From Anaerolineaceae bacterium (GTDB lineage Bacteria > Chloroflexota > Anaerolineae > Aggregatilineales > Phototrophicaceae), in contig PABP01000014.1 of assembly GCA_002699585.1 (NCBI GenBank), positions 558,001 through 622,000 of the forward strand: 64,000 bases of DNA, written 5' to 3'. Shown piece after piece: positions 21,434-30,958 of this stretch (position 1 is the stretch's first letter; each line of letters starts with the position of its first letter). The position numbers and the translations under genes were made by a program. The notes below the pieces were generated by a model. It was not told the origin of the DNA and made no database searches. It worked only from the letters and a program-made list of their open reading frames with translations.

Positions 21434-22072
21434 ATGCCAGACCCGCAAGCTCCTTCCCTCATAACACCCCCTGACATCGACGATAGTCAGTTGGTGGAGC
21501 AGGCCGTAAACGGCGATGTGAATGCATTTAATGGGCTGGTTTTGCGCTATCAGGATCGTGTCTATAGTATCGCCTACCGCATCATGGGTGAGCCAGATGG
21601 TGCCGCCGATATGACCCAGGATGCTTTCATCAATGCCTTTCGCAAATTAGAGACGTATCGTGGCGGCAGCTTCATCGGCTGGATGGGGCGCATCGTCACC
21701 AATACCTGCTATGACGAACTGCGCAAGCGTAAACGTCGCCCGCAAACTGCTTTTGACGATTTGCCCGGTGGCGATGCTGATGACGGCCCTCCGATAGCCT
21801 CCGATAGCATCACGCCGGAAGAAGCCGCCCAGCGCAGCGATCTCCAGCAGGCTATCGCCGATTGCATCCGCGCCCTCAACGACGACCAGCGCGTCGTTAT
21901 GGTGTTGTGTGACATCGAAAACCAGAGCTATCAGGAAATCGCGGAAATCATGAATCTCAATATGGGCACGGTTAAATCGCGCCTGAGTCGAGCGCGGGTG
22001 GCCGTTCGTAATTGTTTGCAAGCTGTTCAGGAACTTTTGCCACCTGAATTTCGTCTAGGTGATGAAGGCTAA
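21434..22072 (+). CDS. RNA polymerase sigma factor, ECF subfamily (RpoE-like)
   Basis: A 212-residue sigma-70 family member. Region 2 covers about residues 20-95, with FNGLVLRYQDRVYSIAYRI, DAADMTQDAF-like (AADMTQDAFINAFRKL, the -10 recognition helix) and YRGGSFIGWMGRIVTN. Region 4 covers about 140-195, with LPP-like spacing, QSYQEIAEIMNLNMGTVKSRLSRAR as the helix-turn-helix for the -35 box. A 191-base gap with a family B repeat separates it from the anti-sigma gene, which is unusual for such a pair. It likely responds to an envelope signal. Confidence 0.95.
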   Translation: MPDPQAPSLITPPDIDDSQLVEQAVNGDVNAFNGLVLRYQDRVYSIAYRIMGEPDGAADMTQDAFINAFRKLETYRGGSFIGWMGRIVTNTCYDELRKRKRRPQTAFDDLPGGDADDGPPIASDSITPEEAAQRSDLQQAIADCIRALNDDQRVVMVLCDIENQSYQEIAEIMNLNMGTVKSRLSRARVAVRNCLQAVQELLPPEFRLGDEG

Positions 22073-22149
22073 ACAAGTTGTTGGTGATTGGTTGTTAGTT
22101 TTTAATGCTGAAATCGCTTCTGAAGGTCATTGCTCCTAAGTTAAGGATC

Positions 22150-22196
22150 AAGGCATCCTTCCACCTCATGGGGGAAGGACTGAGGATAGGGGTCTA
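22150..22196 (+). repeat. intergenic repeat family B, copy 4
   Basis: AAGGCATCCTTCCACCTCATGG then GGGAAGGACTGAGGATAGGGGTCTAAA. It has the CTCATG cap instead of CTTCGG. It lies between the sigma and anti-sigma genes. Confidence 0.75.
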
Positions 22197-22263
22197 AACA
22201 ACAACTCATCACTAAAAACCAAAGACTAAAATCTGCGAACTGTGAGCTAAAGACTGTGAACTG

Positions 22264-23460
22264 ATGGAACCCTACGAACTGACTGACCGCGATGCCGAAC
22301 TGCTTTCGGCCTACATTGACGATGCCCTGGACGCTGAACAGCGATCCAGCCTTGAAGCACGTCTGGCGCAAGACGCGGATTTACGTCGGGAGCTGCGCAG
22401 CTTGCAGCAAACAGTCGCTCTGGTTCGTAGCCTGGAAGATGTACGCGCCCCGCGTGATTTCACCCTGACACCGGAAATGGTCGGCCTGGGTGATCCCACA
22501 CCTGCTGCGCCGGAGCGTCCTGCTCTGAAAGTTATGCCACGCCGCCGCAATATCTGGCAGATCGCCATGACAAGTGCCGCCGCCTTTGTGCTGGTGTTCG
22601 CGGGTGTGCTGGTCGTCATGCGCGTCATGGATAACCAAAGTGCCCCAACGGATACGCCTGCCCAGGTAGCCGTTGCGCCTACACTCACGGCTGAGGTAGT
22701 CGCTGATGAAGCAGCCGATGAACCCGAAAATGCCAACTTGATGGTCGCAACGCTTGCAGAGACAACGCTCGCCCAGACCATGACCGTCCAGACAGAAGGC
22801 TATAGCTCGCGGCAGGCCATAGAAGCCACGCCTGTTATCACCATCGTTGATGGCGTGGCAATCATCACGCCTGCTGTCAATATGCCTACTATCCCAGAAG
22901 TAACGCCGCTACCGACTCAATCTCTATCTGCAACGCCGCTCCCTGGCTCGGCTAACGATACGGGTATGATCGTGCCTGTGTCCCCGCCTGAGGATGTCGA
23001 AAGCGATGACAGCCTAGGCGACGAAGGTTTCGCCCTGGAAGCACAGCCAACGCCATCTGAGCCGCCTATTGCGTTATCCGTCCAGCAGGCAACGCCCACA
23101 CCCGCACCGACGCTTATGGCCCAAACACAAGCCAGGGGGGCCGGGGGTGCGGGATCGGATACACAAGATGGCGAGGCTGAAGTAGCCGAAGTACCGCAGG
23201 ATAGTGCAGCGGATAGTGCGGCCAGTGAACCCATCCCCTCCGATGCGGATACGACAATGGGTGGTGCGGCATCTGCTGAAGAATCTGCCGCTCCTAAAAC
23301 GGGTGACGTGTTGGGCATGCTCCTGGGCGGATTATACCGATCCAGTGCCGAAACAACGCTCTTCCGTCTACCCAATGAGCAGGTTGTTACACTGCAAGAT
23401 GCGCTCGACGTTTTCCTGCGGATTGCGGCAGGCATCGCCAATGTGGAGGCCACCCGATGA
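22264..23460 (+). CDS. membrane-bound anti-sigma factor (zinc motif missing)
   Basis: A 398-residue protein. The N-terminal 50 residues (LLSAYIDDALDAEQRSSLEARL...) match the anti-sigma helix pattern, but the HxxxCxxC zinc ligands are replaced (AQDADLRREL), so it is not a zinc-bound ZAS domain. One membrane segment lies at about 97-118. The external part of about 280 residues is low-complexity, rich in Pro, Thr, Ala and acidic residues, with no fold visible until a final 60 residues. It presumably holds the sigma factor encoded upstream. Its stop overlaps the Nudix start by four bases. Confidence 0.82.
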   Translation: MEPYELTDRDAELLSAYIDDALDAEQRSSLEARLAQDADLRRELRSLQQTVALVRSLEDVRAPRDFTLTPEMVGLGDPTPAAPERPALKVMPRRRNIWQIAMTSAAAFVLVFAGVLVVMRVMDNQSAPTDTPAQVAVAPTLTAEVVADEAADEPENANLMVATLAETTLAQTMTVQTEGYSSRQAIEATPVITIVDGVAIITPAVNMPTIPEVTPLPTQSLSATPLPGSANDTGMIVPVSPPEDVESDDSLGDEGFALEAQPTPSEPPIALSVQQATPTPAPTLMAQTQARGAGGAGSDTQDGEAEVAEVPQDSAADSAASEPIPSDADTTMGGAASAEESAAPKTGDVLGMLLGGLYRSSAETTLFRLPNEQVVTLQDALDVFLRIAAGIANVEATR

Positions 23461-23957
23461 GCCGCAGCGCCCATTATTGCCCTCAGTGTGGTGACGCCCT
23501 CGCTCACATCGAGCGCCACGGGCGCATCCGTCCTGTATGCCCCTCCTGCGACTACACCGTCTATTATGATCCCAAGGTCGCTGTGACCATCTTTATTGAG
23601 CAGGACGAGCAGGTGTTGCTGGTGCAACGCAAGAATGATCCCGGCTGTGGTAAATGGGCCATGCCCGCTGGCTTTGTGGAGTATGACGAAGCGCCGGAAG
23701 ACGCTGCCATCCGCGAAACGTTGGAAGAAACCGGCCTGCAAGTCGAAATCACTGATCTGTTGGCCGTTTTCCCCCGCAAAGACCACGGTCTTGCGGATAT
23801 CGTCATTAGCTATGCGGCCCGCGTCACTGGCGGCCTCCTCCAGGCGGGCGATGATGCCGCCGCTGCTCAATGGTATACGCGGGCGGCTGTGCCCATTGAC
23901 GACCTCGTATTTTACCCCTCCAAGACGCTGATCGGGGCCTGGGTCAATCAGTGTTAA
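23457..23957 (+). CDS. Nudix hydrolase with N-terminal zinc ribbon
   Basis: A 166-residue protein. C8-x2-C11 and C28-x2-C31 form a zinc ribbon, as in NudC-like and ADP-ribose pyrophosphatase-like Nudix enzymes. The Nudix box GFVEYDEAPEDAAIRETLEETGL runs over about 72-94 with all metal-binding Glu residues. It would hydrolyse a nucleoside diphosphate linked to another group; the exact substrate is not readable. The ATG overlaps the anti-sigma stop (ATGA), so the two are translated together. Confidence 0.92.
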   Translation: MSRSAHYCPQCGDALAHIERHGRIRPVCPSCDYTVYYDPKVAVTIFIEQDEQVLLVQRKNDPGCGKWAMPAGFVEYDEAPEDAAIRETLEETGLQVEITDLLAVFPRKDHGLADIVISYAARVTGGLLQAGDDAAAAQWYTRAAVPIDDLVFYPSKTLIGAWVNQC

Positions 23958-24027: not shown

Positions 24028-24441
24028 GTGGAAAACTCAAAGTCGACAGGCTTCACCTACGAAGTTCGAGACGACGGTATCAAGATCTATCGATTAACGG
24101 ACCTCAAACGTGATACGGTTGATGCCTTTTTTGAGATGAATCTTTCAATAGGTTTAGCGATAATGGAAGCGGGGCATCACAATCGCAGTATATTGGATGT
24201 GTCCACATTATTGATGCCGACGCCCTACGCCGCCAAGCGTTTCCAACAGTTGGCCTCCTTGCGCCCTAACGACAGTCGATCTTCTGTGGCCATCCTGACG
24301 CCATCACGCCAGTTATATATGTTTGTACGGACGATGCTGAGTCGTGTCCCGCAGAATAATAAATCGCACATTCGGTTATTTAGTTCAGAAGAAGAGGCAC
24401 TTGCCTGGTTGGATGAACGCCTGAATGAACTGGGTCCTTAA
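24028..24441 (+). CDS. SpoIIAA/STAS-like protein, paralogue 1 of 4
   Basis: A 137-residue soluble protein, first of four tandem paralogues. Shared marks: (Y)E-x-RDDGI near the N-terminus, LKRDTVDAF, a strand ending SILDVS, then MPTPYAAKRF, VAILTPS, IRLF-x-EEEALAWLDERL and the terminal LGP. The last strand-helix unit (LF..EEALAWL) resembles SpoIIAA-like/STAS domains, which act as regulatory partners, but the phospho-serine site is not obvious. The GTG start is the only in-frame choice that keeps the conserved N-terminus; the Shine-Dalgarno is weak. The second copy follows 17 bases later. Confidence 0.8.
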   Translation: MENSKSTGFTYEVRDDGIKIYRLTDLKRDTVDAFFEMNLSIGLAIMEAGHHNRSILDVSTLLMPTPYAAKRFQQLASLRPNDSRSSVAILTPSRQLYMFVRTMLSRVPQNNKSHIRLFSSEEEALAWLDERLNELGP

Positions 24442-24458
24442 GGGGGCAAAAACGAAGG

Positions 24459-24893
24459 GTGGAGAAACAAAGGGTGGACTACCAAGTCGGCATATCATCG
24501 GGCTGTACATACGAAATGCGCGACGATGGTATCGCTCACTTTGTGTTTTTGAATCTAAAGCGTGATGCGGTTGATGTGTTTGTCGATACTTTGAAGGTAA
24601 TCGTTCAGGAACGTGTTGCTGCTCAGCAGCACAGTCGTACGCTGGTCGATGCCAGCCTGCTAACAATGCCGACGCCTTATGCGGTGAAGCGCTTTCAGGA
24701 ACTTGTGATTGATAAGCCTGATAAACTCAGGTCTTCGGTGGCCATTATTACACCCTCTAAAATGATCAATACCTTCACGCGGACGATCTTTACGCGGATG
24801 CCCCCTGACAAGAAATCACATATCCTTCTGTTTAATACAGAAGAAGAAGCTCTCCTCTGGCTGGATGCTCGCCTGGAAGAAGTTGGCCCCTAG
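24459..24893 (+). CDS. SpoIIAA/STAS-like protein, paralogue 2 of 4
   Basis: A 144-residue paralogue. It keeps YEMRDDGI, LKRDAVDVF, LVDAS, MPTPYAVKRFQEL, VAIITPS, LLFNTEEEALLWLDARL and ends in VGP rather than LGP. It is closest to copy 1. The start is a GTG at 24459, 17 bases after copy 1, with AAGGGGG overlapping the previous stop, so these two are probably one transcript. A later GTG at 24474 is possible. Confidence 0.8.
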   Translation: MEKQRVDYQVGISSGCTYEMRDDGIAHFVFLNLKRDAVDVFVDTLKVIVQERVAAQQHSRTLVDASLLTMPTPYAVKRFQELVIDKPDKLRSSVAIITPSKMINTFTRTIFTRMPPDKKSHILLFNTEEEALLWLDARLEEVGP

Positions 24894-24948
24894 GAATATC
24901 GCCTGCGTGATGCTCTCGTGAATTTCCCTTCTCGTACCAGGAACATGC

Positions 24949-24954
24949 TAAAAT
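24949..24954 (+). promoter_or_regulatory. possible -10 box for the third SpoIIAA-like paralogue
   Basis: TAAAAT within the small inverted repeat ATGCTAAAATAGCAT, 40 bases before the ATG at 24994. Confidence 0.3.
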
Positions 24955-24993
24955 AGCATTGTCTGATAGCGGACTCGTTAGGACGAGCCTGGT

Positions 24994-25416
24994 ATGCCCA
25001 AGTCATTCAATTCGAAATCCTCAGGATTCAGTTATGATATACGCGAGGATGGTATTATCGTCTATCGCCTTGCTAATCTGCGACGCGACACAGTCGATGA
25101 ATTCGTAGAAGTCTCTCGTAACTTTGATGTCGTCGCTTACGAAGCGGGGCGTCATAGCCGTTGTCTGCTCGATATTTCAAAACTGTCGTTTCCAACACCC
25201 TACGCAATCAAACGCCTCCGAGAGAATACGGAGTCAACGCCCGATGGACTCAAAGAATCCTGGGCGGTTCTCGCACCTACATCACGCCTTTATACCTTCA
25301 TGATGACCAACTTGAAGGGGTTAACGAAGTCTAAAGTCCAACCTGTTCGCTTGTTCCAGACTGAAGAAGAAGCCTTCGCCTGGTTGGAGCAGCGCCTTGA
25401 AGAGTTAGGCCCCTAA
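24994..25416 (+). CDS. SpoIIAA/STAS-like protein, paralogue 3 of 4
   Basis: A 140-residue paralogue, more diverged: YDIREDGI, LRRDTVDEF, CLLDIS, FPTPYAIKRL, AVLAPTS, VRLFQTEEEAFAWLEQRLEELGP. The PTPYA-x-KR core and the terminal LGP are unchanged. A 100-base gap with a possible promoter precedes it. The start ATG is the first in frame. Confidence 0.8.
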   Translation: MPKSFNSKSSGFSYDIREDGIIVYRLANLRRDTVDEFVEVSRNFDVVAYEAGRHSRCLLDISKLSFPTPYAIKRLRENTESTPDGLKESWAVLAPTSRLYTFMMTNLKGLTKSKVQPVRLFQTEEEAFAWLEQRLEELGP

Positions 25417-25437
25417 TGGATTGTACCGTCCGCTCAA

Positions 25438-25570
25438 TATAATTAAGTATCATTACGCATTTGGGGTGGCTGCTATGCCTGTTACCCTATGACTAAGGAG
25501 GCCTCTGTAGCGGCCTCATCCTCGTAATATCGCTGCGTCGAGTCGAAAGATTCTAGAAAGGACGAGATGC
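25438..25570 (+). promoter_or_regulatory. possible promoter and leader hairpin for the fourth paralogue
   Basis: TATAAT at 25438-25443 is followed by a leader of about 120 bases holding the hairpin GAGGCC/GGCCTC (25498-25517). AAAGGA just before the ATG at 25571 is the ribosome site. Confidence 0.3.
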
Positions 25571-26002
25571 ATGAACGCCAAAATTGCTCACTATGGTGAG
25601 CTTGAAAACGGATTTGAGTATTCGATACGTGACGATGGTATTCATTATTACCGCCTGTCCGATACCAAGCGTGTGTCGGTAGATGCATTCTTTGATGTCA
25701 ATCTGCGCATATCGCTGGATTGTGCTGACCGCGACGAACACTGTCGCAGCCTCATGGATGTTACAGAGATGGAGTTCCCGACGCCCTATGCGGTTAAGCG
25801 CGTACAAGCGTTGATGCGCCTAAAACCGGATCATCTGCGCACATCATTTGCAGTAATCACACAACCGAGCATCTTTTATGCTTTGACAGGGGCCATATTC
25901 AACCGCATGCGCCAGGAAGAACACAATCATGTCCGTATGTTCACTTCTAAAGCCGACGCACGGCAATGGCTGGATGACCGCCTTGAAGAACTGGGTCCCT
26001 AG
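25571..26002 (+). CDS. SpoIIAA/STAS-like protein, paralogue 4 of 4
   Basis: A 143-residue paralogue with YSIRDDGI, TKRVSVDAFF, SLMDVT, FPTPYAVKRV, FAVITQPS, VRMFTSKADARQWLDDRLEELGP. It is the best-started copy, with AAAGGA upstream of the ATG. Its stop codon touches the stop codon of the convergent methyltransferase gene with no base between. No partner kinase or phosphatase of SpoIIAA type is found nearby. Confidence 0.8.
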   Translation: MNAKIAHYGELENGFEYSIRDDGIHYYRLSDTKRVSVDAFFDVNLRISLDCADRDEHCRSLMDVTEMEFPTPYAVKRVQALMRLKPDHLRTSFAVITQPSIFYALTGAIFNRMRQEEHNHVRMFTSKADARQWLDDRLEELGP

Positions 26003-27655: not shown

Positions 27656-30600
27656 GTGTCGGGACAGTCTGAGCGACAGTGGGTGAACAATCGCTATGAA
27701 CTGCGCCGTTTGTTGGGGCGTGGGGGTATGGGCGAGGTTTTTGCTGCCTATGACCGCCTGACCCAGGCCGATGTCGCTTTCAAGCGCGTTTTGTTACACC
27801 CTGGCGAGAGTGACGATACCCTCCCCGGCGTCGATTTCCGGCTGGCGCTGGCGATGGAGTTCCAGACACTTGGCTCCTTGCGCCATCCCAATATCATCAG
27901 CGTGCTGGACTATGGCTTTGCTGATGAAGGCGGCCATCCTTTCTTCACAATGGAGCTATTACAGCAGCCCCGCAACATCATTGAAGCCGCGCGCGGCCTC
28001 AGCTTCTACGACAAACTCGACTTGATCCTGCAACTGCTGCAAGCATTGGCCTATCTGCACCGACGCGGCATCGTTCACCGCGATCTCAAACCGGATAACG
28101 TCATGGTCGTGGATGGCCAGGTGAAGGTGCTTGATTTTGGGCTGGCGTTGCATCGCGGTGGGGATGCGTCCCTGGTGGCAGGTACGCTGGCCTACATGGC
28201 CCCGGAACTGCTGCAAGAGGCCCCGGCGTCCCAATCCTCGGATTTATACGCCTGCGGGATGATCGCCATCGAACTGCTGGCGGAAAAGCACCCCTTCAAT
28301 ACGGCTGATGTCACCCAACTAATACAGGACATCTATAACAAACAGCCCGACACGCTCGCTCTGGATATTCCAGAGTCGTTAGCCTACATCCTGGCCGGGT
28401 TGGTGCAAAAATCGCCACAGAAGCGTTATCAGGACGCGGCAGGTATTCTGGCGATGTACACCCAATCGGGCGAAGCCTACGCGGAAAATCCGGCTATGCG
28501 CGATAGCTTTTTGCAGGCGGCGCGCTTCATAGGCCGTGAAGACGAAATGGGCGACTTGCTTGACCGCCTGGGCGCGCTCAAAGAGGGCCGGGGTGGTCTG
28601 GTGCTCATCGCGGGTGAAAGTGGCGTGGGCAAGTCGCGTTTGCTGGGCGAAGTTCGTATGCATGGTCTGGTACATGGCGTGCGCGTGCTGCTGGGCCAAT
28701 CGGTGCAGGATGGCGGTAGTCTCTATCATGCATGGCGTCCCATCATCGAGCGATTGGTGCTCTTCACTGAAGTCGAGCCGGAAGAAGCCGCTGTGCTCAA
28801 GGTGCTCGTGCCCGACATCGAACGCCTGCTGGCTGATAGCGACCTGACCGAAAGCAAGCTGCCGGAACTCAATCGCAAGGCCGCGCTGGAAAAACTACCA
28901 GCGGTGTTAGAGACGCTCTTTAAGCGCCAGAGTGTGCCGCTGCTGATTATTCTTGAGGATTTGCACTGGGCACGGGAAAGCGTCGATTTACTGGCGCGGG
29001 TGCATAGCAGTTTAGCCGGGACGCTCGTCTTGATACTGGCCAGCTACCGCAATGACGAAGTTCGCAACCTCCCGACATCGCTGCCACAAGCCCAACTCAT
29101 GCAACTGGATCGCCTGAGTTCTGATGAAATCGGCCAATTATGTCATTCCATGCTGGGCGAGCATATCCATAACCAGGAAGCGGTCATCGACTTGCTGGAA
29201 CGCGAGAGCGAAGGCAACGTCTTTTTCATCATCGAAGTCATGCGCGCACTGGCTGAAGAAACCGGGCGGTTGGATTTAATCGGGACACAAACCTTGCCAC
29301 CGACCGTCTTCGCCAGGGGTATGAAGACCATTATCGAACGGCGCTTGTCGCGTGTCCCGGCGGCTGACCGTGCCTTGCTGCAAGCCGCCGCCGTCATAGG
29401 CCGCCATTTGGACCTGGAGCTTTTGCAGCATCTTTCGCCAGCGACGGACCTGTCGAACTGGTTGACAACCTGCTCCGATGCGGCTGTGCTGGATGTCAGC
29501 GAGGGCCGCTGGCGCTTTGCCCATGATAAATTGCGTGGTGGCTTGCTCGACGATATGGAAGAGGGCAAGCGCCGCATTTTGCATCGCCAGGTCGCCCAGG
29601 CTATCGAAGCTGTCAGGGGGGCCGAACCCGAACAGTACAAGCGGCTGGCGTATCATTGGGGCATGTCCGGCAGCCTGGAGCATCAAGCGCGGTATGCCAG
29701 CCTGGCCGCGGAGCAGTTGGCGCAGGCGGGTCTGAATCGCGATGCCAAGGCACAGTACGAAGTCGCCATTCGCGCCTTGCTCAAACAGCCCATGACCGAT
29801 GAGCGCCGCCTGGATCTGATTCGTTGGGCGACTCGCAGCGCGGAAGTGGCCATCTACCATCCTGATGACACCGTGGCTGAACTGCTCGACCATGCCATGC
29901 AAGCCGCCCAGGAACGCAACGAAGTCGAGTCTATTTTGCAGGTTATGTCTGCCTATGGGACCTACTACTATATGGTCGGGCAGGCCGACGCCGCCCATGA
30001 AGTCCTGACAGGCTGCATTCATCTGGCGGAGGAACACGGCTTTGATAGTCAGGAACACCTACGCGTTTATTTGATGCAGCCGTGCAGCGTACTCGGGCGC
30101 AATCTGCTGCTGACGGGCGATTGTGTGGGCGCATTGGCCATGCTGGAACGCGCCTCTGAACTCGCGCTTGAGGCGGGCGCCGATGAAGTCCTGGCTGGGG
30201 CACTGAACTGGCGCGCGGTCAGTTTGTTCTTGCAGGGCGACCGTCATGCGTCCATCGCCCTGGCTGATGAAGCTCTGGCTGTAGCGCTCAAATTGGGCCA
30301 TCCCAGCCGGATTGCCGGCAACAAGGCCATGCTGGCTGTCATTGATGCTGTCAGCGGCCACACTGACCGTAGCCTGCAACATGCTGAAGAAACCCTGGCC
30401 ATAGTCGAAAAAACAGCGGATGTTCACCCGCAGTACAACGCCCTGGCCGCCATTGGTCGTACCCACATGCTGCTGGGGATGCAAAACCGAGCTGCTCGTT
30501 CATTGGAGCGTGCCTTAACGCTGGCCTTCGAACAGCAGGTTTATACGTTTGTGCCCATGTATCAGGCTTGGCATGCGGAAGCCATCGCCGTCCGTGGTGA

Positions 30601-30958
30601 GGCCAACCGTGCCCTGCGCCTTGCCGAAAATGCCGTTCAACTCGCCCAGAAGACCCACCAACGTCTGGGAGAAGCCACCGCCAAACGTGCGTTGGGGGCT
30701 ATCTATGGCAGCATGGACGTTAGCGAATGGCCGCGTGCTCGTGCTTACCTCGATGAGAGCATCACCATGCTGCGCGATATGAACATGAAACCCTTCTTGG
30801 CTGCGGCCCTGTTCCAATTGGCCCAACTCAGCTTTGAACATGGCGACATCCAGGTCGCCGCCGACGCCCTCGCGGAAGCTCGCCAACTCGCTATTGAAGT
30901 TGATATGCCCTGGTATAAAGTCCAGATCGCCGCTCTTCAGGGCACAATTGGCGTCTGA
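27656..30958 (+). CDS. Ser/Thr protein kinase fused to AAA ATPase and TPR-like repeats
   Basis: A 1100-residue cytoplasmic signalling protein. Residues about 14-275 are a Hanks-type kinase: GRGGMGEV, K43, HRDLKPDN (D143, N148), DFG at 160-162 and APE at 182-184. After FIGREDEM comes a predicted AAA/STAND ATPase with Walker A GESGVGKS (320-327) and Walker B LLIILEDLHW (about 429-438). From about 640 to the end there are TPR-like helical repeats. There is no membrane segment and no LuxR-type DNA-binding end. Such proteins (PknK-like) couple a ligand or partner to phosphorylation. The FHA protein at 6786 is a conceivable reader. Confidence 0.93.
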   Translation: MSGQSERQWVNNRYELRRLLGRGGMGEVFAAYDRLTQADVAFKRVLLHPGESDDTLPGVDFRLALAMEFQTLGSLRHPNIISVLDYGFADEGGHPFFTMELLQQPRNIIEAARGLSFYDKLDLILQLLQALAYLHRRGIVHRDLKPDNVMVVDGQVKVLDFGLALHRGGDASLVAGTLAYMAPELLQEAPASQSSDLYACGMIAIELLAEKHPFNTADVTQLIQDIYNKQPDTLALDIPESLAYILAGLVQKSPQKRYQDAAGILAMYTQSGEAYAENPAMRDSFLQAARFIGREDEMGDLLDRLGALKEGRGGLVLIAGESGVGKSRLLGEVRMHGLVHGVRVLLGQSVQDGGSLYHAWRPIIERLVLFTEVEPEEAAVLKVLVPDIERLLADSDLTESKLPELNRKAALEKLPAVLETLFKRQSVPLLIILEDLHWARESVDLLARVHSSLAGTLVLILASYRNDEVRNLPTSLPQAQLMQLDRLSSDEIGQLCHSMLGEHIHNQEAVIDLLERESEGNVFFIIEVMRALAEETGRLDLIGTQTLPPTVFARGMKTIIERRLSRVPAADRALLQAAAVIGRHLDLELLQHLSPATDLSNWLTTCSDAAVLDVSEGRWRFAHDKLRGGLLDDMEEGKRRILHRQVAQAIEAVRGAEPEQYKRLAYHWGMSGSLEHQARYASLAAEQLAQAGLNRDAKAQYEVAIRALLKQPMTDERRLDLIRWATRSAEVAIYHPDDTVAELLDHAMQAAQERNEVESILQVMSAYGTYYYMVGQADAAHEVLTGCIHLAEEHGFDSQEHLRVYLMQPCSVLGRNLLLTGDCVGALAMLERASELALEAGADEVLAGALNWRAVSLFLQGDRHASIALADEALAVALKLGHPSRIAGNKAMLAVIDAVSGHTDRSLQHAEETLAIVEKTADVHPQYNALAAIGRTHMLLGMQNRAARSLERALTLAFEQQVYTFVPMYQAWHAEAIAVRGEANRALRLAENAVQLAQKTHQRLGEATAKRALGAIYGSMDVSEWPRARAYLDESITMLRDMNMKPFLAAALFQLAQLSFEHGDIQVAADALAEARQLAIEVDMPWYKVQIAALQGTIGV

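Follow-up and report, generated by a model that had tools for sequence, protein, structure and literature searches.

Four tandem genes in the window (the whole 64,000-nucleotide stretch of Anaerolineaceae DNA analysed here) encode small paralogous proteins with a predicted SpoIIAA/STAS fold, which we place as a diverged branch of the SpoIIAA-like superfamily that lies under the Pfam thresholds and is not composed of classical anti-sigma antagonists. As a tentative functional reading, to which we assign a probability of roughly 0.4, these stand-alone domains may serve as small cytosolic adaptors or switches that act through the start of helix 2 and are possibly controlled by phosphorylation.

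Four tandem paralogous genes

The four genes, referred to below as copies 1 to 4, are the following:

24028..24441, + strand: copy 1, predicted STAS-fold protein of 137 aa, with a GTG start that is the only start 5' of the conserved core (open reading frame, AlphaFold2 model and fold matches)
24459..24893, + strand: copy 2, 144 aa, GTG start, 17 nt past the stop of copy 1
24994..25416, + strand: copy 3, 140 aa, grouping in the tree with one copy of the sister species Phototrophicus methaneseepsis (56% identity)
25571..26002, + strand: copy 4, 143 aa, the most diverged of the four

The first-pass annotation of this DNA had described four tandem paralogues of 137-144 aa, and this description is borne out by open reading frames at exactly those positions, all on the + strand. 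Their products align from end to end, and 33 alignment columns are invariant. Copy 1 is 46-52% identical to the other three, and the remaining pairs range down to 38% (38-52% overall), while at the DNA level tandem repeats run across the copies with spacings of 452, 523 and 586 nt. Differences are about twice as frequent at third as at second codon positions, indicating that the copies behave as real coding genes; no dN/dS is given because synonymous sites are saturated. Most of the shared motifs listed in the annotation were recovered, except that copy 3 carries REDGI instead of RDDGI and has RR-x2-VD, whereas the C-terminal motif was found only in part, with copy 4 lacking E-x-A before WL (ADARQWL) and copy 1 ending in RLNELGP. 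Copies 1 and 2 had also been assigned to one transcript. Judged from the sequence, this is plausible because only 17 nt separate them (copies 3 and 4 are preceded by 100 and 154 nt, respectively), but a promoter and terminator scan gave no signal exceeding that of shuffled sequences.

Predicted fold and placement in the SpoIIAA-like superfamily

An AlphaFold2 model of copy 1, with the four paralogues as alignment input, has a mean pLDDT of 85.6 and a pTM of 0.81. Its elements follow the order b1-b2-a1-b3-a2-b4-a3-b5-a4, which is the strand order of SpoIIAA and STAS domains and the order reported for the SpoIIAA-like fold (PMC2954212). When the model was searched with Foldseek and VIA-align, STAS anti-sigma antagonists ranked first (Z of 13.4 for STAS 4xs5, 12.1 for RsbS 6jhk and 11.2 for SpoIIAA 1h4y), the SpoIIAA-like protein 2q3l reached a Z of 9.9, and Sec14 proteins were also among the Foldseek matches. 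Together with repeated sub-threshold matches to PF11964 and DUF7793, the strand order and top matches of the model support a SpoIIAA/STAS fold for copies 1-4, and the link to STAS and SpoIIAA drawn in the first-pass annotation was thus right with regard to fold. A PDB sequence search gave no significant match, the best being 3bl4 (E 0.053) through the C-terminal FFTS..AL.WL stretch.

Copies 1-4 score 14.8, 15.5, 13.1 and 13.8 bits against PF11964 (SpoIIAA-like), all under its gathering cut-off of 25 bits, and every copy is also sub-threshold for PF25056 (DUF7793; cut-off 26 bits), for which copy 2 is the best match with 21.7 bits (E 2e-4). Among 56 relatives, matches with E <= 0.1 were obtained to PF11964 in 28 and to DUF7793 in 20, far above any other family. 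No match of copies 1-4 to classical STAS (PF01740) was found in the Pfam profile search, hhalign of the family against three of the six PF01740 proteins of the same genome was not significant, and all six PF01740 sites lie away from the window locus. Searches with NCBIfam and PADLOC models returned scattered weak matches only. The earlier suggestion of an undescribed family therefore needs to be divided: it is a family, because homologues occur outside the source genome, but Pfam already models the superfamily, and this branch of it is only diverged and poorly described.

In copy 1 numbering, conservation across the wider family is highest at A88, F118, A124, W127 and L128, with W127 conserved in 85 of 86 members and A88 in 81. 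The spacing F118-x5-A124-x2-W127-L128 equals that of F114/A120/W123/L124 in the Shewanella SpoIIAA-like structures, so that the second conserved cluster of the 2q3l family (F-x5-A-x2-W-L and an Ala in b4) is present. The first or 'switch' cluster of that family, A-A-W-D-D in helix 2, is absent, and helix 2 of the window copies carries PTPYA-x-KR.

These similarities bear on a reading that ranks second after the adaptor reading and that we regard as possible but doubtful, namely that the proteins carry or sense a small nonpolar ligand in the manner of 2q3l/2ook and the CRAL-TRIO/Sec14 proteins, with helices 2 and 3 forming lids over a hydrophobic pocket. By analogy, such a function would agree with PF11964 as the commonest family match, with the spacing shared with the Shewanella proteins, and with the scores of 2q3l and the appearance of Sec14 proteins in the Foldseek list. 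Helix 3 is hydrophobic and has no invariant residue, and tandem copies that each bind a different ligand would fit a fast-changing helix 3. However, classical STAS chains outscore both 2q3l and Sec14, and PTPYA-x-KR replaces the helix 2 cluster of 2q3l. The F/A/WL cluster has been described as packing helix 4 on the sheet, and for this reason it speaks for homology and not for a pocket.

The conserved start of helix 2

The adaptor reading centers on one stretch, which in copy 1 is encoded as follows:

24217..24240, + strand: codons of P64-T65-P66-Y67-A68-A69-K70-R71, where the b3-a2 loop passes into helix 2

The DNA counterparts of this PTPYA-x-KR stretch lie at 24669, 25192 and 25778, and it is the densest invariant stretch of copies 1-4 (7 of 8 columns), in contrast to helix 3, where no residue is invariant. 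P66 is present in 47 of the 86 family members, where the preceding residue is T in 42 and S in 5. Among representatives with less than 50% identity, T or S precedes P66 in 36 of 36 (the next-best column reaches 67%). Choosing rows by P66, however, enriches for those that carry the motif, the rows share ancestry, and position 65 is T or S in only 7 of the 39 family rows without P66. A Thr or Ser is thus strict at the helix 2 start of P66 members, in the setting P-T-P-Y and not D-S/T-x-G. SpoIIAA, RsbR and RsbS are phosphorylated on structurally equivalent Ser/Thr residues, and STAS proteins widely keep a Ser/Thr at that site, Thr52 of MlaB among them (PMC7367683). From the secondary structure, T65 would fall roughly at the phospho-site of SpoIIAA (Ser58) and RsbS, which makes it a candidate phospho- or N-cap residue. 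It should be noted that Ser/Thr-Pro is also an ordinary N-cap where a helix begins, and that helix 2 of the model starts at residue 66, both of which argue against a phospho-switch.

An N-cap is all that T65 would be if the proteins were phosphorylation-free structural adaptors, forming homo- or hetero-oligomers and using G136-P137 only to end helix 4. We consider this unlikely. In the model, helix 2 spans residues 66-77 and helix 4 residues 121-135, so both motifs are located exactly at helix ends; moreover, the family occurs in tandem pairs or arrays at many loci and the Shewanella homologues are dimers (PMC2954212), both consistent with oligomers. Yet Asp and Asn, which are equally good N-caps, precede P66 in none of the 47 members.

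The mechanism that we favour, an adaptor or switch acting through helix 2, would involve contact with a partner through the conserved face that the b3-a2 loop forms with the start of helix 2. The Thr or Ser before P66, placed like the phospho-residue of SpoIIAA, RsbS and RsbR, would control this contact, either through its phosphorylation or by making a polar contact.

The conserved (L/V)GP end of the window copies had been taken in the first-pass annotation as a hint of an interaction surface, a suggestion that the data do not support. A C-terminal GP is limited to the window locus and absent from other paralogues, one of the two P. methaneseepsis copies ends in LGP and the other in LGD, and the tail lies beyond helix 4 in the model. 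Given overall conservation, the last two columns would be invariant by chance with a probability of about 0.05. A docking motif was accordingly rejected, the tail being not conserved in the family, at a helix end in the model and not far from chance. On the simplest reading, G136-P137 look like a stop to helix 4, because that helix runs from 121 to 135 in the model.

Genomic context and candidate partners

The genes around the four copies that could bear on a partner are listed here:

21434..22072, + strand: ECF sigma factor gene, about 2 kb upstream of copy 1
22264..23460, + strand: gene for an anti-sigma-like membrane protein, so named from sequence reading only (no Pfam match), overlapping the NUDIX start by 4 nt
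23457..23957, + strand: NUDIX hydrolase gene, preceding copy 1 by 70 nt and syntenic in the sister species
27656..30958, + strand: Hanks-type Ser/Thr kinase gene with AAA_16 and TPR regions, 1.7 kb downstream, syntenic in the sister species (64% identity)

Besides the kinase gene, genes for a methyltransferase and a phosphoesterase lie downstream of the copies. The region 22072-22264, between the ECF sigma and anti-sigma-like genes, contains many near-repeated AAC/ACTAAA-rich words. A model of the anti-sigma-like protein was too poor for use (pLDDT 44).

The absence of partner-switch genes nearby, as first annotated, holds for the SpoIIAB and SpoIIE types, but a Hanks-type kinase gene and an ECF sigma gene are close. 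A HATPase kinase and PP2C phosphatase are absent beside the window copies; HATPase_c_2 and SpoIIE sites occur elsewhere in the genome. The genome contains 26 Hanks kinase sites and 22 sigma-region-2 sites. The family occupies about 11 loci, and only the window locus has a kinase or sigma gene at a distance of up to 5 kb (in its case, both). A genome-wide linkage of the family with kinase or sigma genes was rejected, as one locus near each compares with about 0.4 expected (simple arithmetic for 11 loci and 5 kb). Different family loci have no neighbouring gene in common.

These data also bear on whether the copies are classical partner-switch anti-anti-sigma factors, with distant RsbW- or RsbT-like kinases or the upstream ECF sigma/anti-sigma pair as targets. 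Besides the STAS fold, this would agree with the presence of ECF sigma and anti-sigma-like genes upstream in both species and with partner-switch genes elsewhere in the source genome, where a full RsbV/W-like pair is found on contig C35 and a PAS-STAS protein, a STAS protein, two HATPase kinases and a SpoIIE-type phosphatase are encoded in a row on contig C7 (L088:1469-4229), resembling the RsbR/S/T/X stressosome set. We nevertheless judge it very improbable, since the copies have no PF01740 match, the D-S/T-x-G motif is absent, just one family locus is near a sigma gene, and control of ECF anti-sigma factors by STAS proteins is not known. For the adaptor or switch proposed above, the kinase would be no dedicated neighbour but could be one of the Hanks-type or RsbW/RsbT-like kinases of the genome. 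The more specific idea that the Thr/Ser-Pro is phosphorylated by Hanks-type and not SpoIIAB-type kinases, with the tandem paralogues serving as parallel phospho-adaptors in Phototrophicales, appears quite improbable.

Distribution and evolutionary history

In a family profile search of 46 genomes, the source genome (6.7 Mb, 42 contigs) had the most members (21), followed by one with 14; P. methaneseepsis, the only other genome of its genus examined, had 7. Synteny at the window locus extends to P. methaneseepsis, which has two copies there versus four here. Syntenic neighbours are 58-90% identical between the species, and the best family pair, involving copy 3, is 56% identical. Likewise, an array of six family genes on a different contig is matched by a syntenic two-gene locus of P. 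methaneseepsis, and many family loci, including ones in other genomes, contain tandem pairs or arrays. In the tree, copy 3 pairs with one P. methaneseepsis gene (100/86 support) and copies 1, 2 and 4 group together, although many forks have weak support, since the alignment offered no more than 123 columns. The tandem arrays are best explained by local tandem duplication in Phototrophicales, in a fast-duplicating branch.

Beside the six-gene array on contig C5 (L072:5733-6185), and at L079:2333-2752 in P. methaneseepsis, lies a further gene whose product reads as a SpoIIAA-like fold; it is 72% conserved beside the array in both species and is missed by the family profile. A second tandem pair of distant SpoIIAA-like genes (L090:640-1056 and 1156-1620; contig C28:548 kb) is located about 10 kb before the window, and tandem duplication is therefore a habit of the whole superfamily in the source genome.

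Since the copies are tandem and fast-changing, a conflict-type array of immunity or antitoxin-like genes was also considered. Copy number varies between the sister species (4 versus 2, 6 versus 2) and divergence is greater for the copies than for the genes around them, as would suit such an array. It is nonetheless extremely unlikely: sequence reading revealed no toxin gene beside the arrays, there is no consistent match to defence models, and, with the patterns used, no relatives were found in viral contigs. A search for close relatives in named genome contigs gave none either.

Significance and comparison with known systems

If the conserved Thr/Ser is a phospho-switch, phospho-regulation of STAS domains would extend to the functionally uncharacterised SpoIIAA-like superfamily, and a cultured organism, P. 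methaneseepsis, would be at hand for testing. Even without a phospho-switch, many unannotated Chloroflexota genes are placed in a known fold and their arrays are explained by local duplication.

Compared with SpoIIAA, RsbV and RsbS (PF01740), the window copies are alike in predicted fold (Z 11-13) and have a Ser/Thr at the helix 2 start that may match the phospho-site. They differ in carrying P-T-P-Y in place of D-S/T-x-G, in missing a PF01740 match, and in having a conserved WL in helix 4 and no SpoIIAB- or SpoIIE-type neighbour. DUF7793 (PF25056) is the best sub-threshold match of copy 2, but the copies miss its 26-bit cut-off, and DUF7793 is itself without known function. The PF11964/DUF3478 proteins (Shewanella 2q3l/2ook, PMC2954212) have A-A-W-D-D in helix 2 where the window copies, scoring 13-15.5 bits, have PTPYA-x-KR, whereas both are stand-alone domains of about 130 aa that are alike in predicted fold, strand order and F-x5-A-x2-WL spacing.
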